Shown here: one piece after another, positions 3,690-42,947 of the stretch
How positions within the stretch are numbered: the first letter of the stretch is position 1
How the letters are laid out: each line of letters opens with the position of its first letter
Assembly (NCBI GenBank): GCA_022563535.1
Contig: JADFNE010000031.1
Coordinates: 1 to 52,091 of the forward strand
DNA length: 52,091 nt
Direction: 5' to 3'
From: Myxococcales bacterium
GTDB lineage: Bacteria; Myxococcota_A; UBA9160; UBA4427
Position numbers and translations under genes: made by a program
Notes under the pieces: model-generated
The model's database searches: none
What the model was told of the DNA's origin: nothing
What the model saw: the letters and a program-made list of their open reading frames with translations, nothing else

Positions 3690-6600
3690 CTACTGAATAT
3701 GATCACAACTCTGCACATAACCAAGATTCATCAGCTGCAAACAATCCTCTTTGGTCATTGCGACATCACCGCCAGCTTCGACCGCTTCTCCTAGAGCATA
3801 TTTCAATTGCAACTCAGCATGAGAGGCCAGCGTGGTCATCTCCGAGTCGAAGCCCGAGCTCGCGAGATTCTTTGTCTCATGAGGATCGGAACTCATGTCA
3901 TAGAGTTCCGTCTCTTCGAGACCGCGCGGATTGCCCGGGTTCGCCTGGATCATTTTCATCGTCTTGGTCCGCAGGCTCCAGATCACATTGCCCTCGTGGT
4001 CCTCTTCGGAGTACACCTCGAGATCCTTGGCGGAGCGTGAAGAACCTTCGCTCATCAGGTCGATGCCCTGCATTGCATCCGGCACCCGGGTCCCCGTCGC
4101 GGCAATCAGCGTCGGCGCCACGTCGATCGTTCGAGCCATCTCGGCCAAGCTGCTGGCGGGGGCCGCCGGCATACCCTTGGCCCACTTAATCAGCAGCGGA
4201 ACATGGATTTGCTCGTCGTACAACGTGAGCCCGTGCCACCATCCACCGTGCTCGTAGAACTCTTCGCCGTGATCGGCGACCAGTGCGATTACCGAATTGT
4301 CGTACAGGCCTAGTTTCTTGAGTTGGGCAAGCAGGTGACCCACGTTGCGGTCGAGATATTCGATTTCGCCGTTGTAGAGCCGGTGCATCTCCTTGGCCAG
4401 GCTCTCGTCCGGGTGCTGATTCGAAACCCGCGCAATCGCGATTCCCGTGTAGCTCCCATCGGCTTCGTGTTCGAAGTAGGGATCGTGGGGGTCCATATAA
4501 TGAAGGAATAGAAAGAAGCGATCCGCTGCGTGGCGTTCGAGCCAGTCGAAAGCGGTCTCGTTGACCACGTTGCTGTCCTGGTAGAAATCACCGAAGCGCA
4601 GGCCCTTGTTGATCTTGAACCAGACGGCCCGAACGATCGAATAGATGATCAGCTTGGACGAAGATTCCCGAGCTCCTGCGAGATAGTCGGGCCCGAGGTA
4701 GATGTACTCGTCGTACCCCTGATCGAAGCCAAAGCTTCCGGCCAGGTTGATGTTGCTCGCGATCCCGCCCGTGGTGTAGCCGCGCTCCTTGAGTACCTCC
4801 GAGATCAACTCGACGTCGGGAGACAAAGTAGAGGGCTTCGACATGGCATTGTGGCTCGAGGGCAGCAGCGACGTAAGCAGCGATGCCGTTGCGGGCTTGG
4901 TCCAGGACGCAGCAGAGAAGCCTTGGAACCGGCTGCCGCCTTCTTCCATCAGGCTGCAGATGTTCGGGGTTTCGAGACTTCCGCCATAACAGGAGAGATG
5001 ATCTGCGCGCAGGGTGTCGACCATGATCAGGATCACGTTGGGCTGATTCGCCAGCGCAGCGGGAATGCCTCCGTGGTGCGTGTCCGCCTTGCCGCTCGGG
5101 CCCGCGACCAACATGGTGATAAAGCCCATGACCAACGCGACTGCGAGGGCGCCGAATGCGCCGGACGGTTGTGCCAGGCGTCCGATACTGCCCCGGAACA
5201 ACCGCGGTCCCATGAAGAAGAAGAAGAGCGCGATGGCGCCTCCCGCGGCCAGCACTCCCAGGAGAACGGGTGTCGGTGGCATTTGTTCGAGGTAGACATC
5301 TCGGCGCAATCTGAAGACGGTGATGGCCAGACCAAAGGGAACCAGGGTCGCAATCATCGCGAGACTGGGCACCCAACCCTGGGCGTCTTCGCGATCCATG
5401 GGCAGCACGCCGAGGAAGGCGCCGCCCACCATTCCCAATCCACCAAGGATCGTCGAGTAGGCGAGGAATCCGTACCAGAAAACCTGGGCTTCTTCGCCGA
5501 AACCACCCTGGGCGATCACGGCCGTTTCGATCAGGCCGATCAAGATGCCCGCGAGGATGCCGCCGCCGAGACCCAGCCCGGCCGAGTGCGCGATCCGCGC
5601 GCCCATCGGGGGAAGTGCATGGCCCGACACGGCGTCGTGCTTGGCCTTCTCCTCGTCGGTTTCGATCGAGCCCGCTGCTTTGGCGGCTTCTGCGTAATCG
5701 ACTTGTTGGCCGTCTACCAGGCAGGAACTGGGGGTGTAGTCCTTCGGGCGGATCCACCAGAAAACGCCGCCGATCAGCGTGAGGGCTTCCGCCGCCCAGA
5801 ACCCGAGGGCTGCCGAAACGATTGCGTTTCCCGCACCCAGCCGCTCGCTCAGCAACAAATACTGCGCGGCTTCGCGAATTCCTTCTCCCGCAATGGTAAA
5901 GGGGCTGAGCACCGTGGCGAGGATCTGGATCGATGAGCCGAACGTCACCTCCCAGAAATTTGCGCTGGCTACGCCGATCGCGAGTGCGGTAAAGAAGTAC
6001 ATCGCTGCGGTCGTGAAGTGGACGACAAAGCTCAGAAACAGGGCCTGGATGACCAGCATCTTCTGGTTCCGGTAGGCCGCGGCTGCGTTGGAAAGTCGCA
6101 GTACGATGCCTTCGAGTCGCTGCTTGCCGGGGATCGGCACGTTTTCGAGCACCCACTGCACGAGACCCGGGAAAAATAGAATGGTGAGCAGGCTGCCGAT
6201 GATGCCCCCGACCAGGGCAACGGAGATCGCCGCAAAGGTATAGGTCTGGTCGCCAAGGTGAACGCGGAGAATCTCGACACCAAACGGAAGAGAGACGAGG
6301 TATGTCAGAAAGATTCCCGTGACGCCCAAAACCTTCTCGAGGAACGTTGCCGCGGTGGTCTCGACCGTGCGACCACTGAAGCGCGAAGCGTCATAGAGTT
6401 TGTAGCCATCGAGACCCGCGGTGCTGGGCAAGAAGGTTCCGATGAAGCGTCCAATCAAGAACGAACCAAAGATGTGCTTGAAGGGAAGTTGAATTCCCTG
6501 CCCGCGCAACAGGATGATCCAGCGACGCATCGACGCCAGAATCCCGACGAACTTGATTCCCGTCGCCATCGAAACGAACAACCAGAAGGTTCCCGCGTCT

Positions 6601-6812
6601 ATGTTCTGGAGAGTTTGCTGAATCAACTTCCATGCAATGACGTATTCCCCGTCTTCGAGTTTCACGGGGTGAGACAGGAGCAACCAGAACGCGCGAACGG
6701 TGACCCATGCTTTCAAAACGTTGAGGATGCGCCCTCGCAGATTGTCGGGCGCAAAACGCGAGACAAGAATGGCGAGCAGGGCGACGGACGCGATTTCGAG
6801 CAGAATAATCAT
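3690..6812 (-). CDS. Fusion: flippase/LPG-synthase-like membrane region plus sulfatase-fold catalytic domain
   Basis: The 1040-residue polypeptide has three parts. Residues ~60-360 resemble the 'lysylphosphatidylglycerol synthase TM region' family (UPF0104/AglD-like), with FIGTFLPSTAGLDGY and the SPFTIAGEGIREAAQYL loop. Residues ~400-570 are another set of hydrophobic helices. Residues ~590-1040 are a sulfatase/alkaline-phosphatase-superfamily domain with VDTLRAD (about 598-604) and VADHGEEFYEHGG. The nucleophile segment reads T-K-P-A-T, so Thr (about residue 638) replaces the formylglycine Cys. The layout suggests a membrane enzyme that handles a lipid or lipid-linked substrate and transfers or removes a phosphate or sulfate group. 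The C-terminus carries an L-x-x-L-G-Y motif (LQLMNLGYVQS). gpsA lies upstream on the same strand, 266 bases away. Boundaries are approximate and the substrate is unknown. Confidence 0.8.
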   Translation of the reverse strand: MIILLEIASVALLAILVSRFAPDNLRGRILNVLKAWVTVRAFWLLLSHPVKLEDGEYVIAWKLIQQTLQNIDAGTFWLFVSMATGIKFVGILASMRRWIILLRGQGIQLPFKHIFGSFLIGRFIGTFLPSTAGLDGYKLYDASRFSGRTVETTAATFLEKVLGVTGIFLTYLVSLPFGVEILRVHLGDQTYTFAAISVALVGGIIGSLLTILFFPGLVQWVLENVPIPGKQRLEGIVLRLSNAAAAYRNQKMLVIQALFLSFVVHFTTAAMYFFTALAIGVASANFWEVTFGSSIQILATVLSPFTIAGEGIREAAQYLLLSERLGAGNAIVSAALGFWAAEALTLIGGVFWWIRPKDYTPSSCLVDGQQVDYAEAAKAAGSIETDEEKAKHDAVSGHALPPMGARIAHSAGLGLGGGILAGILIGLIETAVIAQGGFGEEAQVFWYGFLAYSTILGGLGMVGGAFLGVLPMDREDAQGWVPSLAMIATLVPFGLAITVFRLRRDVYLEQMPPTPVLLGVLAAGGAIALFFFFMGPRLFRGSIGRLAQPSGAFGALAVALVMGFITMLVAGPSGKADTHHGGIPAALANQPNVILIMVDTLRADHLSCYGGSLETPNICSLMEEGGSRFQGFSAASWTKPATASLLTSLLPSSHNAMSKPSTLSPDVELISEVLKERGYTTGGIASNINLAGSFGFDQGYDEYIYLGPDYLAGARESSSKLIIYSIVRAVWFKINKGLRFGDFYQDSNVVNETAFDWLERHAADRFFLFLHYMDPHDPYFEHEADGSYTGIAIARVSNQHPDESLAKEMHRLYNGEIEYLDRNVGHLLAQLKKLGLYDNSVIALVADHGEEFYEHGGWWHGLTLYDEQIHVPLLIKWAKGMPAAPASSLAEMARTIDVAPTLIAATGTRVPDAMQGIDLMSEGSSRSAKDLEVYSEEDHEGNVIWSLRTKTMKMIQANPGNPRGLEETELYDMSSDPHETKNLASSGFDSEMTTLASHAELQLKYALGEAVEAGGDVAMTKEDCLQLMNLGYVQSCDHIQ

Positions 6813-7078: not shown

Positions 7079-8083
7079 CTACCCAAACTCACTCTTGAGC
7101 TGTCGCATCATCAACGACTTCCCCGCCTCCAGGGGCGTCCGTTCCCTATCCAATACTTCGCGCACCAGCTGGGCCATCGGCATGTCCACGTTGAGCCGAT
7201 CTGCGAGTTTGCAAACAGCGCGGGTTGTATTTACGCCTTCTGCAACTTCGCCCATCTCTTCCAGGATTTCGTCGAGCCCACGACCCTGACCGAGCGCGAG
7301 TCCAACCCGGCGATTGCGTGACAGATCCCCGGTGCAGGTCAGAATCAGATCACCCATTCCCGAGAGTCCGAGGAATGTGGTGGGGTCTGCCCCCAATCGG
7401 ATTCCCAGCCGGGTGATTTCGGCGAGTCCCCGGGTCATGATCGCAGCTCTCGAGTTGTGTCCCTGGTTTTGCCCGTCTCCCATCCCGACCGCGATTGCAA
7501 TTACATTCTTGAGCGATCCACCGAGTTCGACTCCCATGACATCCGTGCTCGTGTAGCAACGAAACCAGGGACAAGAGAGAGTCGCTTGTACGGAAATTGC
7601 GTACGTCTCGTCCTGACAGGCAATGGTGACCACCGTGGGCTTGTGATTGGCGATCTCCGCCGCAAACGACGGACCCGACAAACAGGCGATTCGCGCGTGA
7701 TGTGATGCGGGCAATACGTCGCGCAGAACCTGGTTCATCGTCATGCCCGTATCGAACTCGATTCCCTTGACGGCGGAAAGCAGAATCGCCCCCTGTGCAA
7801 GGTGTGGGGCCGCTTGCCCCATGACTTCGCGTACGGCGTGACTCGGCACCGCACAGATCACCAGTTCCTTTTTTGCGACGGCTTCGGCCAGATCGCTGGT
7901 CGCGCGAACGCCCGCTGGAATGGTGGTGTCGCTGAGATAGTGAGGGTTCCGGTGGTCACGATTGATCGCATCTGCGGTGGCCTGGCTGCGCGTCCAAAGC
8001 GTGACGTCGCCGTAGCCTTCGCAGAGGATGGCGAGGCAGGTGCCGAAGCTTCCGCCGCCGATCACGCCTACCGGTATCGACAT
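7079..8083 (-). CDS. gpsA: Glycerol-3-phosphate dehydrogenase [NAD(P)+]
   Basis: The 334-residue protein matches the full length of GpsA, which reduces dihydroxyacetone phosphate to sn-glycerol 3-phosphate for phospholipid synthesis in the cytoplasm. Visible signatures are the N-terminal dinucleotide motif VIGGGSFGT, the central LSGPSFAAEI, the catalytic-Lys segment GGSLKNVIAI, and LSGMGDLILTCTG with N-R-R-V-G. The ATG at 8083 starts directly before the Rossmann strand, as usual. The next gene on this strand is the membrane fusion enzyme. The presence of both this enzyme and a glycerol-1-phosphate dehydrogenase homologue (35047-36141) means the cell may make both glycerol phosphate stereoisomers. 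Confidence 0.95.
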   Translation of the reverse strand: MSIPVGVIGGGSFGTCLAILCEGYGDVTLWTRSQATADAINRDHRNPHYLSDTTIPAGVRATSDLAEAVAKKELVICAVPSHAVREVMGQAAPHLAQGAILLSAVKGIEFDTGMTMNQVLRDVLPASHHARIACLSGPSFAAEIANHKPTVVTIACQDETYAISVQATLSCPWFRCYTSTDVMGVELGGSLKNVIAIAVGMGDGQNQGHNSRAAIMTRGLAEITRLGIRLGADPTTFLGLSGMGDLILTCTGDLSRNRRVGLALGQGRGLDEILEEMGEVAEGVNTTRAVCKLADRLNVDMPMAQLVREVLDRERTPLEAGKSLMMRQLKSEFG

Positions 8084-8432: not shown

Positions 8433-8843
8433 ATGCTTGTCGAATACCTGGGTCTGATTGGACTGTTGGCGGTTGGGCTCGGCACGGTGTTTTTTCTTTA
8501 CACCCTTGCGAGTGGCCTTCGCAAAAGGCGCGCCCGAGCAGCGGGCTTGGACGGTTCCGCCCTCGATCCCGTAAGCGAGGAACCCGGTATCCCAGTCGGC
8601 CGCTCGACCGCGCGTTACTTCTTCATTGCAATCGTTGGGTTGATGCTCCACGCAGGGTCCTTCTACTTCTACTTGTGGGGAGCCACGATTCGCAAAGCCG
8701 GTCTCACGGGTCTGATGGTCATGCTCGGCTTTGGTATGTGTCTGATGATGGGTGTGTTCTATGCGTGGGCTCGGGGGGCGGTTTCCTACGCAACCGAATC
8801 CGAAGACGAAGCCCAGATCGATTCAGCAAAGCCGAGCACGTAA
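8433..8843 (+). CDS. NuoA-like complex I membrane subunit (divergent)
   Basis: The 136-residue protein with three hydrophobic segments aligns to NuoA through its second half (Y.W..(T/S)IR..G..GL..M..F......Y...RGA). ATG 8433 is chosen because AAGGGGG lies 6 bases upstream. In NuoA the loop near the quinone channel carries conserved acids in a F-D-x-E-A segment (Asp79 and Glu81 in E. coli). Here the aligned residues are L-H-A-G-S, and the later Glu of helix 3 (Glu102) is also hydrophobic. First gene of the A-H-J-K-L-M-N operon, and no nuoB follows. It would be an integral inner-membrane protein. The family call rests on size, position and the C-terminal alignment. Confidence 0.65.
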   Translation: MLVEYLGLIGLLAVGLGTVFFLYTLASGLRKRRARAAGLDGSALDPVSEEPGIPVGRSTARYFFIAIVGLMLHAGSFYFYLWGATIRKAGLTGLMVMLGFGMCLMMGVFYAWARGAVSYATESEDEAQIDSAKPST

Positions 8844-8867
8844 CACTCGGAAAGGGGGCGGGCTCGA

Positions 8868-9950
8868 ATGCTGTTGGGCATTGGGTTCAAGGTGATCCTG
8901 ATCGCTACCGTGCTACTGGGAGTTCTGGTCCCGGCCCGAGTGCGGATGCTGGTCGGCCGCAGTGCCCAGCCAGCGTTTCAGGGCGGACCGTTTTCGAGCC
9001 ATGCAGTCATTGGTTTGATTGGCCCCCTGGCTCATCTCCTCGATCTCATCGCGATCGAAGCGAGAGTGACTGCCGCCGCGAGAAGAAACTCGAACATCGC
9101 CGCCGCCGCGGTATTTGTCGCCCCCCTGTCGGCCTTCGCCGTGATTCCGTTTGGATCGCGTTATTCCATCGGCGGGCACGAGATTGATCTCGTCGTTGCG
9201 AATCTCGACTGGGGCATTGTCTGGTTGTTGGGCGCCGCAATGCTTTCAATTTACGGTTCGATCGGGCTGGTCCCCAATGTTGGAGATCGAGTGCGTTGCG
9301 GCGTGGTCAAAATCTCGTGGGCGGCCGGAGCCGGATTCGCCCTGGCCGCCCTCGCCATGGTGTTCGGCAGCCTGAACCCGACCGAGATCGCCATTGCCCA
9401 GGACCAGAGCTTTTCGATCGGCAAATTCTCTGGCTCCAACGCCCTCGAGGTCCAACGACTGCTGGTTCCGGGATGGGGAATGTTTCTTCAACCCTTTTCG
9501 ATGCTTCTATACAGTGTCTGTGCCCTGGGTGTGTTGCAGCTGACGGCGGCCGATTCCTCCGATGAACCCGGGAGCCGTTTGACCGGAGCGCAATATTTTC
9601 TCGTCAGGACGTCGGGACATCTCGATGCGTTGTTGGTCGCGAGTGTCATCGTCGCTCTCTTTCTTGGAGGCGGTGCCCTGCCGTATGTCTCGGGAAGCAC
9701 AATCGTAGAGGCAATCGGCGCCTACCTGGGCACCGGGTTCGCGACCTTGTTGTGCATGGTTGTCCATACTTCGGTGTTCTTCGCCAAAGTCATTCTGGTG
9801 GTCGCCATGATCGATCCCATTCGCAGGCGTTTGATCGGGCTTTCGTTCGAGGCGTCACTGAAATTGTGTTGGAAGGTCGTCGTCCCGCTGTCCCTGCTGA
9901 ATCTTCTTGTGACGGCCAACTTTTTGCTAGCGCGCGGGGCATCGCAATGA
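8868..9950 (+). CDS. NuoH-like complex I membrane subunit lacking the quinone-loop acids
   Basis: The 360-residue protein has about eight hydrophobic helices and aligns weakly to NuoH (ND1), the subunit that forms the quinone chamber. The NuoH-like parts include an N-terminal helix, 'LFLGGG' near 270, and a terminal helix with R-R-R-L and W-K-x-x-x-P-L-S-L-L-N. The conserved central loop of NuoH (A-E-x-x-R-x-P-F-D with E-x-E-S-E-L) is missing; the aligned stretch reads TAADSSDEPGSRLTGAQY. The early GPN...KE motif is also degraded. SD-like AAAGGGGG precedes ATG 8868 at a normal distance. The stop overlaps the next start as ATGA. Such losses would be expected to abolish ordinary quinone-coupled function. 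Confidence 0.65.
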   Translation: MLLGIGFKVILIATVLLGVLVPARVRMLVGRSAQPAFQGGPFSSHAVIGLIGPLAHLLDLIAIEARVTAAARRNSNIAAAAVFVAPLSAFAVIPFGSRYSIGGHEIDLVVANLDWGIVWLLGAAMLSIYGSIGLVPNVGDRVRCGVVKISWAAGAGFALAALAMVFGSLNPTEIAIAQDQSFSIGKFSGSNALEVQRLLVPGWGMFLQPFSMLLYSVCALGVLQLTAADSSDEPGSRLTGAQYFLVRTSGHLDALLVASVIVALFLGGGALPYVSGSTIVEAIGAYLGTGFATLLCMVVHTSVFFAKVILVVAMIDPIRRRLIGLSFEASLKLCWKVVVPLSLLNLLVTANFLLARGASQ

Positions 9951-10474
9951 CCTGGCCGCCGATGATTTTTTCGCTGCTCTGCGTAGTGATCCTCGGGGCG
10001 GCAGTCGCCGGGATTCTTTCTCGGCGCGGGACACGAACCAGTGTCGCATGGTTTTTGCTCAGCATGAGTGCACTCGCGGGAGTCTTCATTCTGCTCAGTG
10101 CCCACGTGATTGCGATCGCGCAATTGCTCTTCTGCGCCGGACTCGGACTCGTCTGCTTCTTTGCGATTGACGATTCTGCGGACTCCGATGTCCAGCCGAA
10201 CACCCACAACAACTGGATGCCCAGATCGTGGCATTGGCTCATCATCACGTTGGGTGTCGCGGGCGTGAGCCTGATGTGGACTTTTCTTTCCAGTCTCATG
10301 CCGGGCAACCTGGCTGGAACGCCGCAACACGCGGCGCTGCTCAGTGCGAGATCTTTCGAAACCGTTGGTCATACGGTGCTGGTCGACCAGGGGGTTGCAG
10401 TGCTCTGCGTTGGCCTGTTGTTGTTTGGCGCATTGATAGGGGCCGGTTACCTCGTGCGCAGAGGTCTCGAATAA
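9947..10474 (+). CDS. NuoJ-like complex I membrane subunit (divergent)
   Basis: The 175-residue protein with five predicted helices matches NuoJ in length, topology and position. The helix-3 signature of NuoJ (about V-Y-x-G-A-I..L..F) is represented by F-C-A-G-L-G-L-V-C-F-F: the Gly that forms the pi-bulge is kept and the Tyr is Cys. ATG 9947 overlaps the stop of the NuoH-like gene (ATGA), and the stop is directly followed by the NuoK-like ATG, so translation is coupled. It sits in the inner membrane between the H- and K-like subunits if a complex forms. Confidence 0.6.
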   Translation: MTWPPMIFSLLCVVILGAAVAGILSRRGTRTSVAWFLLSMSALAGVFILLSAHVIAIAQLLFCAGLGLVCFFAIDDSADSDVQPNTHNNWMPRSWHWLIITLGVAGVSLMWTFLSSLMPGNLAGTPQHAALLSARSFETVGHTVLVDQGVAVLCVGLLLFGALIGAGYLVRRGLE

Positions 10475-10786
10475 ATGATCGATCCCAACGCATCGATCGC
10501 GCTTTCGGCCGCCCTCTTTGGTCTGGGAATTCTGGGGGTCTTTGTGCATCGCAGCACCATCTCGGTGCTCCTCAGTCTCCAGTTGATGCTCGCAGCATCG
10601 GTACTCGCACAGGTTTCATTCGACCACACCGTTTCCAGTGTCGGGCAGGCTGCGGGGCAGGGGTTCGGAGTGCTGGTTCTTTCCGTCGCAACCGCACAAG
10701 TCACCGTCGGCCTGGGCCTCTTGATCGCCGCGCGGCGCGAACGCAGGACAAGTCAGCCCCAAGCTGCGGGCAGCTCGCCATGCTGA
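10475..10786 (+). CDS. NuoK-like subunit with both conserved Glu replaced by Gln
   Basis: The 103-residue protein has three helices and a good match to NuoK (MrpC-like). NuoK has two nearly invariant membrane glutamates on the proton path, Glu36 and Glu72 in E. coli. Here the first aligned motif reads LSLQLMLAAS with Gln36 (codon cag) and the second reads ATAQVTVGL with Gln75 (codon caa). The surrounding residues are well kept, so the alignment is secure. In E. coli, replacing these residues strongly lowers activity. The gene directly abuts the NuoJ-like stop and overlaps the next gene by seven bases. Confidence 0.8.
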   Translation: MIDPNASIALSAALFGLGILGVFVHRSTISVLLSLQLMLAASVLAQVSFDHTVSSVGQAAGQGFGVLVLSVATAQVTVGLGLLIAARRERRTSQPQAAGSSPC

Positions 10787-12795
10787 ACGGTACGACGTCC
10801 TCCGACTTGATTCGCTGGATACCCCTGTTCCCGTTGGCCGGGGCGGCCGTTCAGGCGTCGATGTTGTTTCTGCTGCGCAGACCCGTGGCAAGGACCTGGG
10901 TCGTTGCCATGTCGGTAGTTCCGCTCGTCCTTTCGTTTCTGTTTACCTGCGCGGCTTTTGCCGAACTCATCAATCTACCACCGGGAACCCGAGTGCAAAT
11001 CGATTCCCTCTGGAGTTGGATCGGACTCGGGGTCGGGGACGAAACCTTCAACGCAGACCTCGCCTTCCGCTTTGACGCGCTCTCCGGCGCCACCGCTCTC
11101 TTGATCATCATCGTGAGTCTATTGGTTTGGCTCTATGCGCTCGGGTTCATGGAGGGCGACACGCGACCCGACGCGGGATACCAGCGATTTTTCACGTACA
11201 TGAGCTTCGTTCTTTCGTCGATGTTGGTGTTCGTGCTCGGTGACAATCTGCTGGTCATTCTGGCGGGTTGGATGGGGACAGGACTCGGCACGGCTGCGTT
11301 GATCGGGTTCTGGTATTCAGATCGCGGCGGTGGCCGCGCGACGATTCGCAGCATCACTTTCAGTGTTGCGGTTGATGCGATGCTGATCGGCTCCTTCGTG
11401 GGATTGTTCTGGTCGCTCACCACGATCGGCGCCCATACTTCAAGTCTCAGCGACGTCGAAGTCGGGCTCTCGGCCCTGGGCGAATTGCTGGTGACTCTGC
11501 CGTTTGGAGTCGAGGTGCGGGCCCTGACCCTGCTGGGGCTGGGAATCGGGCTCGCGGCGTGTGGTAGATCGGCACAGCTGCCCTTTACCTTCGCGCTCTC
11601 CGGTGTCTCTCGATCCCCGGCGCCAGCGGCGGCTCTCTCGGTGCTCACCGCGTCGATGGGTGTCTATCTATGCTGCCGATTCTCGTTCCTGTTTGCTGCT
11701 ACCGACGCTGCATCCTCTGCCATCGCCTGGGCCGGAGCACTGACCGCGGTAATTGCTGCGGTGTTTGCACTCGTCCAGCGCGACCTGGTCTCGATACTGA
11801 TCGCGACTGCGATTAGCCAGTTTGGCATTGCCTTTCTGGCGGTCGGATGTGGTGCCTACAGCGCAGCGATCTTTCATCTCGCGATGGTCGCTGTCGTCTC
11901 CACATTGATGATCTTCTCCGCGGGATCGGTCATCCACTGCCTCGAAGGGGAGCGCGACATTCGTCGCATGGGGGGGCTGAGCGCTCGACTGGTCTTGACT
12001 CACCTGATGGTTGTCATCGGCGTGCTCTCGCCGGCGGCATTCCTTTCTCGAGAACAAGCCATCGCCTCAGTATTCGAGACCCAACACGTGCCCGGTGCCG
12101 GGGTGCTGTATGGCTTCACGTTGATTGCCGCGCTGCTCGTCAGTTGGGCGCTCTCCAGATACCTGATCGGAGTTTTTTGGGGTTCGATCCGGACTCCTCT
12201 CGGCTTTCGCGACGAATTCAACGATCCACGACTGGGGCTCATGATCCCAATGTACGGGTTGGCTTTTCTCTCGGTGCTTGGGGTCGCGCTCAATCCCGCG
12301 CAAATCTGGGGCGATCTACTGCCGGGAGGTGTCGAGGGTTCTGACAGTCTCGGTCTCTTCCTCGACAGTGCCCTCGCTGCCAGGGCTGGCGAAGCGATCG
12401 ACGTGGGGTTGCGTTGGCGGATGGTCGCTGGCGCGCTGCTCGCGACGGTACTCGGGTTTGGCATCACCTATCTCCTCTACATTCGCTTTCCGAATATCCG
12501 CATCGAGCTGAATGAAAAACTGGCGCCGGTGCAGCGCGTGCTCGCCGGAAACAATGCGTGGGGGCTGTTGGAACGCCGGATTTCGTCGCCACTGATCGCG
12601 CTTTCGCGAACGCTGTTCGAAGGGACGTCCGCTTTCCAGAGCCTCGCTGAGCGAATGCGGCTGGGAGATATGGCGCGCGCGCTGCGGGGCAATCCAGCTT
12701 CCGACGCACACGCAACGAGCATTCGAATCACCCAGGTGTCCTTCCTGGTCGTACTTGGAGGCGCGCTGATCATGCTCGCCTGGGTTGCCCAATGA
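10780..12795 (+). CDS. NuoL-like antiporter-type subunit with depleted proton-channel residues
   Basis: ATG 10780 overlaps the NuoK-like stop and gives 671 residues. The body aligns to NuoL over helices 3-13: RFDALSG, 'RFFTYMSF', 'ALIGFWY', 'GRSAQLPF', 'SAAIFHL' and 'FSAGSVIHCLEGERDIRRMGGL'. Several residues essential in E. coli NuoL are changed. Glu144 of the GWE motif is Met (GWMGTG), Lys229 is Arg (G-R-S-A-Q), His338 is Val and Lys342 is Ser in helix 10, and Lys399 is Arg. The W-L-P-D-A-M-x-G-P-T-P-V loop is replaced by an unrelated sequence. His334 and Asp178 are kept. The remaining C-terminal part contains a long region and a final helix, as in the lateral helix of NuoL. It overlaps no frame of NuoM if that gene starts at 12830. 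Confidence 0.85.
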   Translation: MLNGTTSSDLIRWIPLFPLAGAAVQASMLFLLRRPVARTWVVAMSVVPLVLSFLFTCAAFAELINLPPGTRVQIDSLWSWIGLGVGDETFNADLAFRFDALSGATALLIIIVSLLVWLYALGFMEGDTRPDAGYQRFFTYMSFVLSSMLVFVLGDNLLVILAGWMGTGLGTAALIGFWYSDRGGGRATIRSITFSVAVDAMLIGSFVGLFWSLTTIGAHTSSLSDVEVGLSALGELLVTLPFGVEVRALTLLGLGIGLAACGRSAQLPFTFALSGVSRSPAPAAALSVLTASMGVYLCCRFSFLFAATDAASSAIAWAGALTAVIAAVFALVQRDLVSILIATAISQFGIAFLAVGCGAYSAAIFHLAMVAVVSTLMIFSAGSVIHCLEGERDIRRMGGLSARLVLTHLMVVIGVLSPAAFLSREQAIASVFETQHVPGAGVLYGFTLIAALLVSWALSRYLIGVFWGSIRTPLGFRDEFNDPRLGLMIPMYGLAFLSVLGVALNPAQIWGDLLPGGVEGSDSLGLFLDSALAARAGEAIDVGLRWRMVAGALLATVLGFGITYLLYIRFPNIRIELNEKLAPVQRVLAGNNAWGLLERRISSPLIALSRTLFEGTSAFQSLAERMRLGDMARALRGNPASDAHATSIRITQVSFLVVLGGALIMLAWVAQ

Positions 12796-12829
12796 ACGTC
12801 GGCCTGAACTGGGATGGGAGGTTGCCGAC

Positions 12830-14599
12830 ATGGTGACTCCCGTAGATTCCAACATCGTGAGTTGGGTCGTATTTCTTCCGATGTTCACAGCGCTTTCACT
12901 CCTGGGGGCGCGCGTCATCGCTTCGTCGATCTTCAACCTGGACGGCCTGCCGAGTTGGTCCTGGCGTGCGATCGCACTGCTGAGTTCCACGATCACTTTC
13001 GTGCTGGCGTTTGTGGGACTCTGGCAGGGATTCGATCCGGAAATCACCGACTATCAAATGATGGAGCGCATCGGCTGGATGCCCTCGTTGGGGCTCAACT
13101 ACTTCGTCGGAGTCGACGGCATCAGCCTGGTGCTGGTCATGCTCACAACCTTCGTGTTTCCGATTGCGATCGTGGGTTCATGGAAAGAAGTCGATCAGTG
13201 GCTGAGAAGCTATTCGGTGTTTTTGCTCTTGCTGGAGACGGGGATCATTGGGGCATTGGTCTCGCTCAATGCTATTCAACTCTATTTTTTCTGGGAACTC
13301 ACCCTGATCTCGAGTTTCTTCATCTTGGGTCGCTGGGGTGGAGCCGACGGTCTGCGCGCGGCGGTGAAGTACCTGGTCTTGGGTGCTGCGGGATTTTTCT
13401 TGATGCTGGCCGCGACTCTGGTCGTCTATAGACTCAATCTCGAGCAAGGCGGCGCGGGAAATTTTGATCTTGTGAGATGGATCGACGTGGCGTCTCCTGG
13501 ATTTCTCGACACGCGTGTCCCGATCGGTGCCGCGGCCGGAGTCACCGGCGATGCTGGAATCGATTGGTGGCAGACGCAGTCGTGGCTGTTCTTCGCCTTT
13601 GTCCTGGCCTTTGCGGTCAAAATTCCGCTGGTCCCATTTCACGGCTGGTACAACGACGCCCAGTGCCAAGGCCCGACTTCGGGTTCGGTCATCGTATCCG
13701 CCCTGGTACTCAAGCTCGGAATCTTCGCGTTTCTTCGCATCGCGCTCCCGCTCTTTCCCCATGCAGCGATGGAATCTGCGCCGTGGCTGTGCGGCCTTGC
13801 TCTCGCGGGTATCGCCATCAGCGGCGTGTTCGCACTCGCGCAGCGAGATGTCAAACGTCTGCTGGGATACATATCCCTTGCGCATATGAGCTTCATTGTG
13901 CTCGGGATATGCAGTCTCGAACATCATGCGGTTGTGGGCGCTGTTGTCCACATGCTCAGCCATGGATTGTGCATCTCCGTGCTGTTCATCTTGATCGGCT
14001 TTATCGTTGAGCGCAGGTCGACCCGGGAGCTGTCGCAATTTGGTGGGCTGGCGAGACCGATGCCGATCTGCGCAGCGTTGTTCGCGATCGCGATCCTCGG
14101 CCAGGTCGGAGTACCGGGCACCAGCGGTTTCGTGGGCAGTTTTCTCGTCTTCCTGGGGAGTTTCCCGATCGGAGGGTTCACGACCCTTCTGGCACTCGCG
14201 GGGATGGCCTTGGTCGCCTGTGGGTTGATGGGCGCCGCTGGCAGGATGATGCTCGGCCCGATCGAGCAACCGGAAAATCGCGGCCTGATCGATTTGAATT
14301 TGCGCGAGCGACTGGTCGCGCTGTCGCTGATCGTCCCGATCCTGTGGGTCGGCCTGTACCCCAATCCCATTTTGAGACGAATAGAACCTCCGGTGAGCTT
14401 GCTGCTCAACGGAATGGCGCGCGCGGTCGCTGATGCGCCCGCCCCCGTGCCGGATGTCAAACCCGTGGATCGCGTAGTTGAGAAGATTGATGAGAAGATT
14501 GATGAGAAAATCAATCAGGACGTTTTTCAGGAAAAGGTTCAGGACATTCTCGAGGAAATGGATAAGGAACCTGTTCCGGCAATGGAAGTGCGGCCGTGA
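12830..14599 (+). CDS. NuoM-like antiporter-type subunit with charged coiled-coil tail
   Basis: ATG 12830 is preferred because GGGAGG lies about 11 bases upstream and the first helix follows; an in-frame TTG at 12785 would overlap the NuoL-like gene. The 589-residue protein is the best-conserved subunit here. Glu in FFWELTL, Lys in AFAVKIPLVPFHGW, Lys in LVLKLG, His in AHMSF and His in MLSHGL (E. coli Glu144, Lys234, Lys265, His322, His348) are all present. The terminal Glu407 of GFVGEF is Ser (GFVGSF). Residues ~545-589 form a hydrophilic tail with three EKID-like units followed by acidic residues, predicted coiled coil, which is not a feature of ordinary NuoM. GTGA overlap with the NuoN-like gene. 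Confidence 0.9.
   Translation: MVTPVDSNIVSWVVFLPMFTALSLLGARVIASSIFNLDGLPSWSWRAIALLSSTITFVLAFVGLWQGFDPEITDYQMMERIGWMPSLGLNYFVGVDGISLVLVMLTTFVFPIAIVGSWKEVDQWLRSYSVFLLLLETGIIGALVSLNAIQLYFFWELTLISSFFILGRWGGADGLRAAVKYLVLGAAGFFLMLAATLVVYRLNLEQGGAGNFDLVRWIDVASPGFLDTRVPIGAAAGVTGDAGIDWWQTQSWLFFAFVLAFAVKIPLVPFHGWYNDAQCQGPTSGSVIVSALVLKLGIFAFLRIALPLFPHAAMESAPWLCGLALAGIAISGVFALAQRDVKRLLGYISLAHMSFIVLGICSLEHHAVVGAVVHMLSHGLCISVLFILIGFIVERRSTRELSQFGGLARPMPICAALFAIAILGQVGVPGTSGFVGSFLVFLGSFPIGGFTTLLALAGMALVACGLMGAAGRMMLGPIEQPENRGLIDLNLRERLVALSLIVPILWVGLYPNPILRRIEPPVSLLLNGMARAVADAPAPVPDVKPVDRVVEKIDEKIDEKINQDVFQEKVQDILEEMDKEPVPAMEVRP
14480..14515 (+). repeat. Three 12-bp tandem units inside the NuoM-like tail
   Basis: gagaagattgat occurs at 14480-14491 and 14492-14503, followed by the variant gagaaaatcaat (14504-14515). 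They encode E-K-I-D, E-K-I-D and E-K-I-N, a charged amphipathic stretch that probably forms a coiled coil. Confidence 0.85.
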
Positions 14600-16086
14600 C
14601 CACATCCTATTGGCAACTACAAGCGTTGGCGCCACTGGGGATCATTGCGCTTGCCCCGTTGGTGCTCGTGCTGACGGATGCAGTCTTCATGCGTGAGGGA
14701 AAGCAGGCCAGAGAACGCGAGTTGGGTTTCTTCAAGGGTTCTCTTCTTGCGACCGCCGCGGCGGTTTTTTTGCTCTCCTCGATGGCGTTCGCGGGTTTGA
14801 ACTTTGAAAACACAAACGGTGTGATCGCGTTGGCGAATTCGATGTTCGTCGTCGATCTGACTGCGAGCTTCGCGATCGTACTGTTGTGTAGCGGAGGCTT
14901 GCTGACGCTGTGGCTTTCGCTCGCCTATCTCCCGGCCCGGGGGGTTCATCACGGCGAGTACTATCCCCTGCTGCTCCTATCCGTTGCGGGGGCAATCGCC
15001 GTGGTCTGCGCGGGAAACCTCATCATCCTGTTCGTCGCAATCGAACTGATGACGCTTCCCGTATACGTGATGGTGGCATTTGATCGGGACAAGCGCGGTA
15101 GCGGTGAAGCTGGTATGAGCGCACTGCTGACGGGAGTCTTTGCGAGCGCAATTTCACTCTACGGCATCGCGCTGATCTACGGCGCAACCGGTCACTACGA
15201 CTACCCGGGCATTCACGGCGCAATGGGCGGAGCCTCTCCCCTGGCCCTCGGAGGAATGGTATTGCTGCTTGTCGGCATTCTCAGCCGACAGAGCTTTGCA
15301 CCGTTTCACCAGTGGGCACCCGACCTGAGCGAGGGCGCTCCCGCCGTCGTTGCGATCTGTCTCCCCGCCACCATTGCGACCGCAGCGGCGTTCGCACTGA
15401 TTCGCATTTTCGATTTGATCGCACCCGCCGCCCTCCCCGGATTTACTGCGCTGTTTTCATTCCTGGCAGGGATCAGCATGGTGGTCGGAAGCCTGATGGC
15501 GGCAATCCAATCCAACGTAAAGCGCATGCTCGCGTACGGGGGCGTTGCCCACGCCGGCTTTTTCATGGCCGCGCTGATTGTGCCAACCCCCGAGGCTCGC
15601 AGCGCAGCACTGCTTCACATCACCGTGTTTCTCTTCATGCAAGTCGGTGCACTGGGTGCAATTGCGGCCATGGCGCGGCGGGGAGAAGAGTGGGAATCCC
15701 TTTCGGACTACACGGGCCTTGCGGAGCATCGGCCGATTCTCGCAGCCGCAATGACGCTCTTCCTGCTCGCGCTTGCGGGATTGCCCGGAACTTCGGGCTT
15801 CGTGAGTCGCCTGGCGGTGATGTCGGTTGCGATCGGAGACGGTCAAATCCTGCTCACACTCTTGATGGCGATCACCAGTGTGGTCTTGTTCGCGGGGTAT
15901 CTGCGCGTGCCTACGGCAATGTACATGGGAAAGGCCAACCGCGGCGAGTCTGAGGATCTCTCACTTCCGGCGGTGTTCGCACTTTCAATTTGCGCGCTCG
16001 CGACGCTCTACTTCGGCCTGTTCCCGGGTCGAGGTCCAATTCCGTTCGACATTCTCGAAATCGTGCAGCGAGCTGTGCAACCCTGA
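14596..16086 (+). CDS. NuoN-like antiporter-type subunit lacking channel lysines
   Basis: GTG 14596 overlaps the NuoM-like stop (GTGA) and gives 496 residues aligning along all of NuoN. Conserved segments are IELMTLPVYV (Glu133 equivalent kept), FASAISLYGIALIYGATG, APFHQWAPDLSEGAP, VKRMLAYGGVAHAGF and AGLPGTSGF. Lysines that form the proton path in E. coli NuoN are replaced: Lys158 by Ser (E-A-G-M-S-A), Lys217 by Arg (G-I-L-S-R-Q), Lys247 by Ala, and Lys395 by Arg (G-F-V-S-R). Last gene of the operon; a 178-base gap follows before the glycosylation locus. Membrane-embedded, with a role that depends on whether partner subunits exist elsewhere in the genome. Confidence 0.88.
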   Translation: MTTSYWQLQALAPLGIIALAPLVLVLTDAVFMREGKQARERELGFFKGSLLATAAAVFLLSSMAFAGLNFENTNGVIALANSMFVVDLTASFAIVLLCSGGLLTLWLSLAYLPARGVHHGEYYPLLLLSVAGAIAVVCAGNLIILFVAIELMTLPVYVMVAFDRDKRGSGEAGMSALLTGVFASAISLYGIALIYGATGHYDYPGIHGAMGGASPLALGGMVLLLVGILSRQSFAPFHQWAPDLSEGAPAVVAICLPATIATAAAFALIRIFDLIAPAALPGFTALFSFLAGISMVVGSLMAAIQSNVKRMLAYGGVAHAGFFMAALIVPTPEARSAALLHITVFLFMQVGALGAIAAMARRGEEWESLSDYTGLAEHRPILAAAMTLFLLALAGLPGTSGFVSRLAVMSVAIGDGQILLTLLMAITSVVLFAGYLRVPTAMYMGKANRGESEDLSLPAVFALSICALATLYFGLFPGRGPIPFDILEIVQRAVQP

Positions 16087-16264: not shown

Positions 16265-17146
16265 ATGGGAAGCGCGCCCAGGTTCATCGCGGAAGTTTCT
16301 AGCAATCACGGTGCCGACCTCCAGCGGTCTTTGGCTTTCATCGATCGCGCTGCCGACATCGGCTGTGATGGCGTCAAGTTTCAGCTCTTCAAGATCACTC
16401 AGTTGTTTGCACCCGAGATTCTCGCCAAGAGTCACGACCACCGCGCTCGGGTCGCCTGGGAACTACCTCTCGAGTTCATTCCGGAACTTGCAGCGCGGGC
16501 ACGCGAACGGGCAATTCAGTTTGGCTGCACTCCATTCTATCTCGAGGCAGTCGACGTCCTCGAGCCCCATGTTGATTTTCTGAAAATCGCCTCATACGAA
16601 CTCATCTGGAACGATCTATTGCGGGCGTGTGGCGCCACGGGGAAGCCGATCGTTCTGTCCACTGGAATGGCCAATCTTCAGGAAGTGCGAGATGCGGTCG
16701 AAACCTTGTTCAACGCGGGCTGCCGGAGACTCACGCTTCTGCATTGCGTGTCGGGGTACCCCGCCAAGCCCTACGAGGCGAACCTCTCGGCCCTCGTCAC
16801 CCTGCGCGACCTGTCCCGAAACTTCCAATCGTTGGACCTCGATGTTGGCTGGTCGGATCACACCGTCGAACCGGGTGTGCTCCATCGCGCCATTCACCGC
16901 TACGGTGCCCAGATGATCGAGTTTCATTTTGATCTCGACGGAAAGGGCGAAGAGTATGCTGTCGGTCATTGCTGGAAACCGGATCCGATCTCGCATTTGA
17001 TTCGCGATACTCGAATCGCGTTTCGTTCCGATGGAGACGGTCGCAAGATTCCGGCCGCGAGGGAGCGAGAAGAGCGCAACTGGCGCGCCGATCCGACAGA
17101 TGGCCTCAGGCCGGTGCGGAGTTTTCGGGAGAGCTTCGCTCGGTGA
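16265..17146 (+). CDS. NeuB-like nonulosonic acid synthase without SAF domain
   Basis: The 293-residue protein matches the TIM-barrel domain of N-acetylneuraminate/legionaminate/pseudaminate synthases (NeuB, LegI, PseI), which condense phosphoenolpyruvate with a hexosamine-type sugar. It has IAEVSSNHGAD, GCDGVKFQLFK, FLKIASYEL, STGMANLQEV, LLHCVSGYPAKP and VGWSDHT. Most family members have about 350 residues with a C-terminal SAF (antifreeze-like) domain; here the chain ends shortly after the barrel with WRADPTDGLRP. The ATG is well supported by AGGAGGG. It overlaps the next gene by GTGA. No NeuA-type CMP-sugar synthetase is seen in the window. Confidence 0.85.
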   Translation: MGSAPRFIAEVSSNHGADLQRSLAFIDRAADIGCDGVKFQLFKITQLFAPEILAKSHDHRARVAWELPLEFIPELAARARERAIQFGCTPFYLEAVDVLEPHVDFLKIASYELIWNDLLRACGATGKPIVLSTGMANLQEVRDAVETLFNAGCRRLTLLHCVSGYPAKPYEANLSALVTLRDLSRNFQSLDLDVGWSDHTVEPGVLHRAIHRYGAQMIEFHFDLDGKGEEYAVGHCWKPDPISHLIRDTRIAFRSDGDGRKIPAAREREERNWRADPTDGLRPVRSFRESFAR

Positions 17147-19134: not shown

Positions 19135-19250
19135 TGGAGCGGAAGATGTCGTTGGCTTTGAGAACACCAGTGGGGGCCAACCACGAGAATTCGACCGGGT
19201 CTTTCAATGGTTCCACGCTCGAATCCCACCAGAGCGCATTCCTGCACTAA
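19134..19250 (+). CDS. Possible small protein translationally coupled to the fusion gene
   Basis: An ATG at 19134 overlaps the preceding stop as TGATG and opens a 38-codon frame (MERKMSLALRTPVG... to ...SAFLH) ending in TAA at 19250. It has no recognisable domain, no membrane segment and no clear ribosome site, so it would depend on coupling. It fills most of the otherwise empty gap before the APH-like gene. A chance frame is quite possible. Confidence 0.2.
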   Translation: MERKMSLALRTPVGANHENSTGSFNGSTLESHQSAFLH

Positions 19251-19273
19251 AGCTGCACGTCGCCTGCACCGAC

Positions 19274-23482: not shown

Positions 23483-23709
23483 TGCGCTACCTCAGTATCC
23501 GGAGCAATCTTGCGCAGGAGTTGCGACAAGCCGTAGTGCCATTCGGCCGACCGTTGAAACTGCTCTATAGATAGAAGGACTGATTTTGCCCTCCGAACTC
23601 TCCCCAGCGGCCTGGATCAAAACCCCACCGATCGAGAATCCGTCCGGAATCTCGATACCTGCGGCAGTTATTGCTCAAGCCTGAGCACGATCTTCCGATC
23701 GCTCGCGAT

Positions 23710-24645: not shown

Positions 24646-25352
24646 GATCCAACCCGCGAAGTCCGAGCGTCTTCGCGAAGTCCGGCCTGGACGGGCGCAG
24701 GATTGTTCTGGGAATTGACTTCGACAACACCCTGGCGCGCTACGACGAACTATTTCATTCCCTCGCTATCGAACGAGGACTCATCCATCCCGGTACCCCG
24801 GCGACCAAGCTGGCTGTGCGAAGCGCACTCCGGGAGCAGGGGCGTGATCGGGAGTGGACCGAACTTCAGGGGCTGGCGTATGGAGAGCGGCTCTTGCACG
24901 CCCCTCCGTTTGAATTTGCCATCGAGGCGCTTCGCGCTCTCCATCAACGGGGATGCGAGCTTCGAATCGTAAGCCACAAGACCCGATTCCCGGCGCGGGG
25001 CCCCCGCTTCGATCTTCGTCAGTCGGCGCTAGATTGGCTGAGAATCCACCGTATCATGGATCTCGAGGCGACGGGCATCGGCCGTGCTCAGGTTTTTTTC
25101 GAAAACTCGCAGCGAGACAAGCGAGCGAGAATTCAATCCCTTGGCTGCACGCACTTTATAGATGATCTGCGAGAATTTCTGCTCCACCCCGAGTTTCCCA
25201 CCGGTGTCCAGCGTTTTTTGTTCGATCCGAACAGCCTCGACAAGTTGCACGAATCAATTCCCGTAATCACACATTGGGATCAGGTACGTGAATGTCTCAG
25301 TCGCACCCGTAAGTTCGTAGATCACGACGCTCTTCCCTACAGATCCATCTGA
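24642..25352 (+). CDS. HAD-superfamily phosphatase
   Basis: A TTG at 24642 overlapping the preceding stop, with AAGG upstream, gives 236 residues; a GTG at 24606 is an alternative. HAD motifs are visible: motif I LGIDFDNTLARYD (both Asp), motif II RIVSHKT, a Lys/Arg-rich motif III region, and motif IV HFIDDLREF. It should dephosphorylate a sugar phosphate in the cytoplasm. The neighbouring HldE-like genes suggest a GmhB-like role on a sugar bisphosphate, but the sequence does not show GmhB's Cys zinc site, so this is only inferred from context. Confidence 0.7.
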   Translation: MRSNPRSPSVFAKSGLDGRRIVLGIDFDNTLARYDELFHSLAIERGLIHPGTPATKLAVRSALREQGRDREWTELQGLAYGERLLHAPPFEFAIEALRALHQRGCELRIVSHKTRFPARGPRFDLRQSALDWLRIHRIMDLEATGIGRAQVFFENSQRDKRARIQSLGCTHFIDDLREFLLHPEFPTGVQRFLFDPNSLDKLHESIPVITHWDQVRECLSRTRKFVDHDALPYRSI

Positions 25353-25430
25353 CCGTTGCCGATCCGGTGCCGGTGTATGAACCCGCGATGACTTCATCGA
25401 ATTGAAAGAACGGATCAACCGGAGGACGAG

Positions 25431-26126: not shown

Positions 26127-26136
26127 GAAGTCATTC

Positions 26137-39727: not shown

Positions 39728-41683
39728 TCAGCTGCCGCGAAGCACCCGCACGTCGCCCATGCGCCGGGTGACGTGAAGGTCGTCGAGTAGTTCCATCAGC
39801 GGCATCGCGGTCCGCCGACTGGTGCCGATGACTTCCTTGTAGGTTTTGGTGTCGATCTCTTGATGCTCGGTGAGGTATTGGACGACCCTTTCCTTTAGCG
39901 CGTCGATTGCGCTCCGATCGAAGAACAAGTCGCCGGGCGCACGTACGATTTCTTCGTTCCGCTCGAGGAATGCGACGAGGTCCCGAAAGAGATCTTGGCT
40001 AATTGCCAATCGCACCGACCAATCCTTTACCGAGACGGGTTCGAGGCCCGCGCTCTTTGAGTCTTCGCGAATCTTTGCGATGGCAACCTCGGCCTCCGCA
40101 TCGAGGGTCGGGGTGTAGCCCCGCCGCCAGGCAAACTCTCCACCGATACAGATCTCGGCGCGTTCCTCGAGTCGATTGAGGGCTAGCTCTGCCGCTTCCG
40201 GCCGCACGTTTTCGGGCAACTGTCCGCGCAGGGTTCCGCGGCTCATGCCCGGGCGCAGGGGTTCCGCTCGATGGTAGGCCTCGAGTACCTCGATCAACCG
40301 CTGCTCCATGCGCGCGATGATCTCGCTTCCGATCCAGCGCTTTCCTCCCGCACGTACGAGGGTGCCATCGGCTTCGAGCTTCGCGAGGCGATCGCTGAGA
40401 TCACTCGGGGACAACCCCATTTCGACGGCCAGCTCGGGCTCGACCGCTCCGGTCATTCCTGTTCGCAAAATACGCTCGCGGATCCCCGCATCGGTGTTCC
40501 CTTCGGCGAAAATCTCGAGCTCGCGCGCGAGATTCGGATCGCTGCGTCGGCGATGGGGTGGTGCGACATCGAGTATTACGCCTCCGCCCAGGGTTCCTCC
40601 GGTTCCTTCGCTACGTGCAAAACCCCGGGCGATGAAGCGATCTCCCAGCACCAGGGGTACCGGATCGCCGTCGATGTGGAGGCGGGCGAACGCATTCTCT
40701 CCCGGCGCAAAGCCCTCGCAGCCGATGGGTGACAACCGTGCCCGGCGCTCAGCGGTACCCGAGAGAAATTCGATCGACAGCGTTCCTTCTGTTTCGGGCG
40801 CACTCGAGAGCCAACCGATTTGAACGTCTGCAGTCTGGGTGGAGATGATCGCGCCGGACTTGGCGATCATGTCGCCCCGGGACAGCTCCGAAACTTCGAT
40901 GTTCTGGAGGTTCACCGCGCAACGCGCACCCGGCCCTACGCTGTCTCGCGCTTGACCGTGGCTCTGCAAGCCTCGAATGCGCGCCTTGGTTCCCTTTGGA
41001 TGAATCTCCATCGTATCGCCGGTGTGGAAGGAGCCACCCTGCAAGGTTCCCGTGACCACGGTTCCGAAACCCTTCATCGCGAATGCGCGGTCGACCGAAA
41101 GGCGGCTCGGCCCCACGCGGGGGGTGCGGGGAGGTGTGCTGCGAATCAATGATGCGAGGGTGCTGCGCAATTCGTCGAGTCCGGCGCCTGTTTCAGAAGA
41201 GACGGGGACGATGGGTGCTCGGGCAAGTGCCGTCGGAGCGAGCAGGTCCCGCACCTCTTCGCTCGCGAGTTCGATCACTTCTTCATCGGCGAGATCGCTC
41301 TTGGTGAGGGCAACGACGCCGCTTTTGATCGCGAGCAGATCACAAATCGCCACGTGTTCCCGGGTCTGGGGCATTACGCCCTCGTCGGCGGCCACCACCA
41401 GCAAGACGAGGTCGATGCCGGCCGCGCCCGACACCATGGTGCGTACGAGCTTCTCATGGCCCGGGACGTCCACGACAGCGACCTTGAGTCCGTGGTCGAG
41501 CTCGAGGAGCGCGAAGCCGAGTTCGATGGTGATCCCGCGCGCTTTTTCTTCGGGAAGTCGGTCGGTGTCCACACCGGTGAGTGCGCGAACCAGGCTGGTC
41601 TTGCCATGATCAATGTGGCCTGCAGTCCCGAGCACCAGCGACGCAGGCTGCGATGGATCGCGCTCCTCGTCAGCGCGGCCCAA
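39728..41683 (-). CDS. selB: Selenocysteine-specific elongation factor SelB
   Basis: The GTPase domain is clear: [13 protein letters not shown] (P-loop), [23 protein letters not shown] and the TKSD guanine motif. A translation-factor domain follows, then the C-terminal winged-helix repeats that bind the SECIS RNA. SelB brings Sec-tRNA to in-frame UGA. TTG 41683 (651 residues, overlapping serS by 14 bases) is chosen; a GTG just before the P-loop is possible. selA, selC and selD are not in this window, so they must lie elsewhere. Convergent with the HldE-like gene. Confidence 0.93.
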
Positions 41684-42947
41684 TGGAATCTCGCCCCATG
41701 TAGGGTCGCAGAACCTTGGGGATTGCAACGCTGCCGTCCGAGCGCTGATGAATTTCGAGCAGGGCGAGGATCGCCCGGGCATTCGAGATTGCCGTCCCGT
41801 TCAGGGTGTGGACCATCTCGTTCTTTTTGGCGCCCTGTCGTCGGAAGCGAATCTTGAGTCTGCGCGACTGAAAGTCTGTGCAGTTCGAGGTGCTCGTGAT
41901 CTCTCCCCAGTCGCCACCATCCCCGCGGCCGGGCATCCAGGCCTCGAGGTCGAACTTGCGATAGGCCGGGGCGCCGAGATCGCCCGTTGCGATTTCGATC
42001 ACTCGGTACGGGATCTCGAGAGCATCGAAGATGCGTTGTTCGATCCGCAACAACTCTTGATGTTGGGCTTCGGAATCTTCGGGGGTCGTGAATACGAACA
42101 TCTCGGTTTTTGAAAACTGATGAACCCGGTACAGCCCCTTGCTCTCTCTACCCGCGGCACCCGCCTCGGTGCGGAAACAATGGGAGACCCCCGCAACCTT
42201 CAGCGGGAGATCGGCTTCATCGAAGATCGTGTCCGCGTACATTCCCCCGATGGTGATCTCCGCGGTCCCGATCAGGCACAGGTCGTGCCCTTCGATCGAA
42301 TAGATCTGGCTCTCCTCGCCGCGTGGACTGAAGCCGAGCGCTTCGATGATATCGGGTCGTGCGACGTCCGGGGTCGTGATCGGGGTGAAGCCCTCGTCCA
42401 TGACGATGTCGAGCGCGAATCTCTGCAGCGCCAGTTCGAGCAGGCAAGCTTCGTTTTTGAGGTAGTACCACTTCGAACCCGCGACGGTGGCCGCACTTTC
42501 AAAATCGACCAGATCCAGTTCGTCGCACAATTGAAGATGGTCCTTGGGTTCGAAGTCGAACTTTGGAATTTCACCGGAGGTACTGATCTGGCGAAACTTG
42601 TCTTCACCCCCCACCGGACTTTCAGGATGCACGAAGTTGGGCAACTCGCGCATCGCCACGATCAAGTCGGCCTCAGAATCACGCAATCGATCTTCGATCT
42701 CCGAAACCTGTTCCTTGAAGCCGCGCCCGGCGGCATTGTGGGCCTCTCGCTCTGCGGGATCCAGCTTGCGTTTGCCGGACTTCTGGTGCTCGTTGCGTAG
42801 GCGATTCGTCTCGCCCAACTGGGTCAGCAGGGCATTGTAGTCATGCTGGGCGGCGAGGATCGCGTCGAGATCGACGACCAGTCCGCGTTTGCGACAGCTC
42901 TCCGCGATCTCGTCGCGGCGCTCCGTCAGGGTTTTTGGATCCAACAT
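41670..42947 (-). CDS. serS: Seryl-tRNA synthetase
   Basis: ATG 42947 gives 425 residues starting MLDPKTLTERRDEI, the usual start of SerRS; an upstream GTG at 42968 is less likely. The N-terminal coiled-coil arm (~residues 20-110) is followed by the class II core: motif 2 FRTEAGAAGRESKGLYRVHQF and motif 3 LNGTAISNARAILALLE. It charges tRNA-Ser and also tRNA-Sec, the first step of selenocysteine synthesis, which makes the overlap with selB notable. Confidence 0.96.
   Translation of the reverse strand: MLDPKTLTERRDEIAESCRKRGLVVDLDAILAAQHDYNALLTQLGETNRLRNEHQKSGKRKLDPAEREAHNAAGRGFKEQVSEIEDRLRDSEADLIVAMRELPNFVHPESPVGGEDKFRQISTSGEIPKFDFEPKDHLQLCDELDLVDFESAATVAGSKWYYLKNEACLLELALQRFALDIVMDEGFTPITTPDVARPDIIEALGFSPRGEESQIYSIEGHDLCLIGTAEITIGGMYADTIFDEADLPLKVAGVSHCFRTEAGAAGRESKGLYRVHQFSKTEMFVFTTPEDSEAQHQELLRIEQRIFDALEIPYRVIEIATGDLGAPAYRKFDLEAWMPGRGDGGDWGEITSTSNCTDFQSRRLKIRFRRQGAKKNEMVHTLNGTAISNARAILALLEIHQRSDGSVAIPKVLRPYMGRDSIGPR

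Follow-up and report, generated by a model that had tools for sequence, protein, structure and literature searches.

Complex I (NDH-1) is usually regarded as a single machine, with a membrane arm that is meaningful only when quinone reduction drives it. The 14-subunit enzyme has seven membrane subunits (NuoA, H, J, K, L, M and N), a quinone module that includes NuoB (cluster N2) and NuoD, and an NADH module (NuoE, F and G); an 11-subunit form in Desulfitobacterium hafniense lacks the NADH module but still has B, C, D and I as well as the pump residues (PMC11238625). Mrp/Mnh cation/proton antiporters are redox-free complexes of NuoL/M/N-type subunits with MrpB/E/F/G beside MrpA/D, and in the DAB/MpsAB inorganic carbon transporters one antiporter-type subunit, of the NuoL type, serves the non-redox protein DabA (PMC13144422). 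Here we describe an operon of seven complex I membrane-subunit genes in a 52,091-nucleotide stretch of a Myxococcales bacterium, the whole of which is called the window (contig JADFNE010000031.1; C31 of genome G000). G000 is a metagenome-assembled genome (MAG) of 4.63 Mb in 147 contigs with an estimated completeness of 97.9%, and the survey of relatives comprised 80 genomes of its order, among which g1 denotes its genus.

The operon has the same seven membrane subunits as the 14-subunit enzyme and the order and chromosomal place of the complete operon of relatives, but the genome has no NuoB or NuoD and no complex I-type NuoF, and the quinone loops and most proton-path residues have been lost. 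Absence of an NADH module is shared with the 11-subunit form, a stage that two members of the order (G005 and G035) resemble; here, however, B, D and most of the pump residues are gone as well. The arm would resemble Mrp/Mnh in being redox-free and built with NuoL/M/N-type subunits, but the operon is without MrpB/E/F/G, keeps NuoH, NuoA and NuoJ, and has lost antiporter residues in L and N. Unlike DAB/MpsAB, it comprises seven complex I subunits, and DabA is not linked to it (no genome-wide DabA search was made). In the open-access literature we came across no account of a complex I consisting of the arm alone. The operon is very probably a true complex I arm with a reductive history and, judging from its sequence, is likely to function independently of redox chemistry; overall, we favour the reading that a complex I was probably reduced in situ to a redox-free membrane complex.

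The seven-gene operon and the absent modules

The genes occupy positions 8433-16086 on the forward strand in the order NuoA-H-J-K-L-M-N, with intact frames that mostly overlap or abut:

8433..8843, + strand: nuoA-like, 136 aa (PF00507, 6.6e-7; group-wide profile match; sequence), the usual YECG and FDVE motifs being unrecognisable in the sequence
8868..9950, + strand: nuoH-like, 360 aa (PF00146, 4.8e-15; alignments; AlphaFold2 and Foldseek match to NuoH/NdhA)
9947..10474, + strand: nuoJ-like, 175 aa (PF00499, 3.9e-7; group-wide profile; conserved position), its start overlapping the nuoH stop
10475..10786, + strand: nuoK-like, 103 aa (PF00420, 1.2e-13; residues)
10780..12795, + strand: nuoL-like, about 671 aa (PF00361/PF00662, with PF00361 at 7.5e-26; residues; genus alignment)
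about 12830..14599, + strand: nuoM-like (PF00361, 5.3e-56; residues), the frame being open from 12785 with a likely start at ATG 12830
14596..16086, + strand: nuoN-like, 496 aa (PF00361, 1.2e-57; residues)

All seven membrane subunits of complex I are present, and the Pfam matches and overlapping or close frames bear out the first-pass annotation, which had described seven coupled membrane-subunit genes. The nuoJ-like product scores 30.3 bits, slightly under the curated PF00499 cut-off of 33.2 bits, so its identity rests also on position and the group-wide profile. The C-terminal region of NuoL is conserved within the genus alignment, and the closest named NuoL records, at 53-57% identity to the genus, come from the Myxococcota MAGs UWMA-0315, PL23a_bin.25 and Arabian9_MAG_39, the next matches falling to ~30%.

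The same annotation had noted no hydrophilic subunit nearby, which holds for the entire 52 kb: E. coli queries, NuoE, NuoG, NuoC and NuoI included, found no further Nuo subunit in the window, these four having had no separate genome-wide search. Genome-wide, neither NuoD (PF00346) nor NuoB (PF01058) had a match in G000, and control genomes responded. Order-specific profiles were then built from the order's own sequences, 17 of NuoD and 14 of NuoB, divergent ones included. The NuoD profile recovers the divergent NuoD of G006, G024 and G027 (the latter two in genus g10) but gave no match at E <= 1 in G000-G004, G011, G015 or G055; against the homologues of g10, the order-trained profiles reach E 1e-57 to 1e-172. 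The NuoB profile found nothing in G000 at E <= 1 and gave only weak matches, in G002 (E 0.003) and G003 (E 0.8), the former of which we rejected as too weak for NuoB. As far as the Pfam and order-specific profiles reach, unlinked NuoB and NuoD partners, as envisaged at first pass, are excluded, and there is no complete nuo operon elsewhere of which the window operon would be a decayed copy.

Nor is it an extra copy with a different electron donor, as had also been considered. The other three Proton_antipo_M genes of the genome (G000:C8) lie in a cluster of the Mrp/Mbh type alongside MnhB, MbhD/E and MnhG (locus L057), so a second complex I copy was rejected, and G000 has no membrane arm of the complex I type besides the window operon. 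No complex I-type NuoF was found either, the only NuoF-like protein of the genome adjoining a formate dehydrogenase-like subunit.

Residue loss, selection and predicted structure

Loss of the pump residues, which the earlier annotation missed, is the strongest part of the finding. In complete relatives, NuoK E36/E72, NuoL E144/K229/K399, NuoM E144/K234/E407 and NuoN E133/K217/K395 (E. coli numbering here and below) are near-invariant. In the window, both NuoK glutamates are replaced by Q; NuoL has M for E144 and R for K229 and K399 and has lost H338/K342; and NuoN keeps E133 but has R for K217 and K395 and A for K247. The E. coli enzyme can neither transfer electrons nor pump properly without NuoN K247 and K395, both of which are essential (PMC13073174). 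In NuoH, the ERR...GPN loop and the glutamates of the loop between transmembrane helices 5 and 6 are gone; positions E157, E216, E220 and E228 are lost. NuoM keeps E144, K234, K265, H322 and H348, with S for E407, and is the only antiporter-like subunit of genus g1 to retain the Glu-Lys-Lys-His-His chain. Pump residues of K, L, M and N and the E-channel and quinone residues of H are thus mostly lost, and partly kept in NuoM. Of the electron donors suggested at first pass, 'none' is the best fit, since the modules are not all that is gone: the quinone loops of NuoH and the proton-path residues have disappeared too.

Across all columns that do not vary between E. coli and 14 relatives whose complex I residues are normal, genus g1 retains 49% of charged positions but 75% of those with Gly or Pro (Fisher p 4e-13, to be read only as a guide, since neither the columns of one protein nor the species of one genus are independent), whereas the 11-subunit control G005 retains 91% of each. 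The same skew is present in every pump-eroded lineage and absent in G005. Charged retention in g1 is 76% for NuoM, 60% for NuoN and 38% for NuoL, and in genera g2 and g9 it is 73-83% for NuoN, the best-kept subunit there, and 50-61% for NuoM.

The frames are under purifying selection. Nei-Gojobori ratios of nonsynonymous to synonymous substitution (dN/dS) in lineages without the quinone module, where computable, are 0.08-0.20 for NuoL, 0.11-0.14 for NuoM and 0.08-0.29 for NuoN, overlapping the 0.18-0.28 of L, M and N in pairs with complete complex I. For G002/G003, both without the quinone module, the values are 0.12 (M), 0.18 (L) and 0.29 (N), with higher values of 0.4-0.5 for NuoJ and a NuoH fragment. 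All seven frames are intact in both G000 and G001, whose proteins share 41-61% of their amino acids. The window NuoH, the most diverged large subunit, was modelled with AlphaFold2 from window and related-locus sequences only (predicted local distance difference test score 79.6; predicted TM-score 0.81), and the top Foldseek matches in the PDB were all complex I/NDH-1 NuoH/NdhA/ND1 chains at TM-scores of ~0.5-0.8. Among the low-confidence stretches of the model are residues 32-38 and 226-236, at the alignment positions of the lost loops.

Reduction among relatives and competing explanations

In the order as surveyed, NuoH was found in 72 genomes and NuoD in 61. NuoH without NuoD characterizes all four genomes of g1, both of g2, both of g33, G011 (g9) and G078, and g9 would count two of two if the sole NuoD of its member G017 is taken as contamination. 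That NuoD lies on a contig of mitochondrial look (G017:C115, locus L124) with NuoB, NuoC, NuoH and cox1 matches, which is probably eukaryotic contamination of the MAG; we rejected its NuoD and NuoB as proof of a quinone module in g9 on account of the mitochondrial-looking NuoC-like and cox1 matches. G026, G060 and G066 also have no NuoD, but they are 76-87% complete and NuoD is otherwise present in their genera. Arm-only loci span H to N where the contig permits, those of G076 and G078 ending inside nuoL. In genus g43 (loci L245, L246), G077 has a complete complex I and G078 a divergent H/K/L start with Q at both NuoK positions and no NuoD found; G078 may be a recent conversion, although this genome is 85% complete and its contig ends in nuoL.

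Complete relatives have an A-E-F-G-H-J-K-L-M-N operon, with B elsewhere and I-C-D adjacent at a second locus. A constant link of the arm to nuoB-I, which the first-pass annotation had named as evidence against its reading, is not seen in relatives. G005 and G035 have this operon without E/F/G and with normal residues. In G006, g10 and g11, B, C, D and in most cases I are present, together with the NuoB cluster N2 cysteines, in combination with an arm whose pump residues are lost; such complexes in g10 and g11 may reduce quinone, perhaps without pumping. Pump residues of NuoK, NuoL and NuoM are lost at the g10/g11 loci L112-L117, L120, L126-L128 and L130. These states make it well supported that the NADH module (E, F and G) was lost first, that the pumping and quinone residues then eroded, and that the quinone module was afterwards dropped in at least three lineages that retained the arm. 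Since the nuo locus keeps its place in relatives with complete complex I, the reduction occurred in situ and not by acquisition. In a tree of H-J-K-L-M-N, g9 and g2 group with g11, and g1 groups with g10 and G055; a single clade of all arm-only rows is rejected (approximately unbiased test, p-AU 5e-9), with a minimum of three changes of state. Transfer of a whole arm-only locus into family f4 was also rejected, as the flanking gpsA of G055 matches f4 at 70-84% versus f1 at 61-68%.

We propose that the seven proteins still assemble as one long arm without redox-driven pumping; H, A, J, K, N and L may serve as scaffold and as docking face for a putative partner at the former NuoB/NuoD site. In g1, NuoM perhaps still conducts protons or cations; in g2 and g9 it is NuoN that is best preserved. 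Our preference is for a scaffold that keeps a single ion path (NuoM in g1), and that this path is what does the work is an idea that we hold only tentatively. A fuller account, to which we give not quite an even chance, is that a redox-free seven-subunit arm arose repeatedly in one order, keeping its architecture and one ion path for another role, such as chemistry driven by the proton-motive force (PMF), PMF sensing or scaffolding.

Several points weigh against the reduced, redox-free arm. The genomes of g1 are all MAGs of 94-98% completeness; the NuoM path may be incomplete because E407 is lost, though E. coli NuoM E407K pumps ~1.5 H+/e-, ~3/4 of normal (PMC9271201); single dN/dS values are rough because dS is high in most genus pairs; and the tree-test groups were chosen after the presence/absence pattern had been seen, with long branches weakening exact placement. 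The main rival, which we consider unlikely but well worth weighing, is that the arm works with a new non-redox cytoplasmic partner, the PMF driving chemistry or transport, as NuoL-type DabB does with the carbonic-anhydrase-like DabA. In its favour, DAB2 has been published as a case in which an antiporter subunit of the complex I type works with a non-redox partner (PMC13144422); the arm's docking face is free, and each lineage better preserves one of its antiporter-like subunits. Against it, the operon is linked to no conserved partner gene, and those neighbours that are conserved are found around complete complex I operons too. It is improbable that a quinone module is present but unrecognisably divergent or hidden in assembly gaps: MAG completeness and the divergent NuoB/C/D/I of g10 relatives leave room for it, but the order-trained NuoD profile is silent at E <= 1 in four of four genus genomes, g2, G055 and G011, and the NuoH residues that would contact such a module are lost.

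A functionless relic in slow decay is at odds with seven intact frames, dN/dS values mostly of 0.1-0.3, Gly/Pro positions retained far above charged ones and repeated loss of the quinone module while the arm stayed, so that, for all the fast evolution of NuoH and NuoJ and the loss of most functional residues, we regard it as highly improbable. Least credible of all is an arm fed by another electron-input module, such as an NAD-formate dehydrogenase. G000:C3 (L142:6202-10664) does encode a NuoEF-like 543-aa protein adjoining a 945-aa FdhA-like protein, with a MobA-like gene nearby, but a single 51K-family protein of like size is also found in relatives with complete complex I, none was found in G011, G017 or G055, and there is neither a NuoB/NuoD for electron passage to quinone nor a quinone site. 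Because we read its neighbour, by N-terminal sequence and gene order, as a subunit of formate dehydrogenase, the NuoF-like protein is taken as part of an NAD-formate dehydrogenase, and its candidacy as a complex I remnant was rejected.

On the preferred reading, the arm would outlive its driver in several lineages, with pump residues removed and architecture kept under selection, and the order would offer a natural experiment that sets coupling residues against structural ones, with intermediate stages side by side: 11-subunit G005; uncoupled-looking G006, g10 and g11; and arm-only g1, g2, g9 and g33. This pattern points to a further role of a membrane complex that Myxococcota have conserved.

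Neighbouring genes and other observations

The nuo locus lies at one position throughout the order: to one side are the genes of an LPG-synthase/sulfatase protein, of a FeoB-like GTPase and of GpsA, and to the other those of SelB and SerS. As GpsA, the FeoB-like GTPase, SelB and SerS flank complete operons too, they were rejected as partners. Landmarks in the window are:

3690..6812, - strand: 1040-aa protein with LPG_synthase_TM and sulfatase domains (Pfam; synteny), beside nuo across the order
7079..8083, - strand: gpsA, NAD glycerol-3-phosphate dehydrogenase (Pfam; synteny), upstream of nuo in most of the order, with no claim to be a partner
39728..41782, - strand: selB, with serS adjoining (Pfam; tblastn)

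SelB-SerS lies directly downstream of nuoN in most relatives and is displaced in G000. Downstream of nuoN, window positions 16265-27791 carry sugar and NeuB-type genes (for NeuB, epimerase/ATP-grasp, glycosyltransferase, MptE-like and RmlD proteins), partly common to G002 and G003. A COX1-family protein was found in 61 of 61 genomes checked, and these organisms therefore probably respire oxygen.

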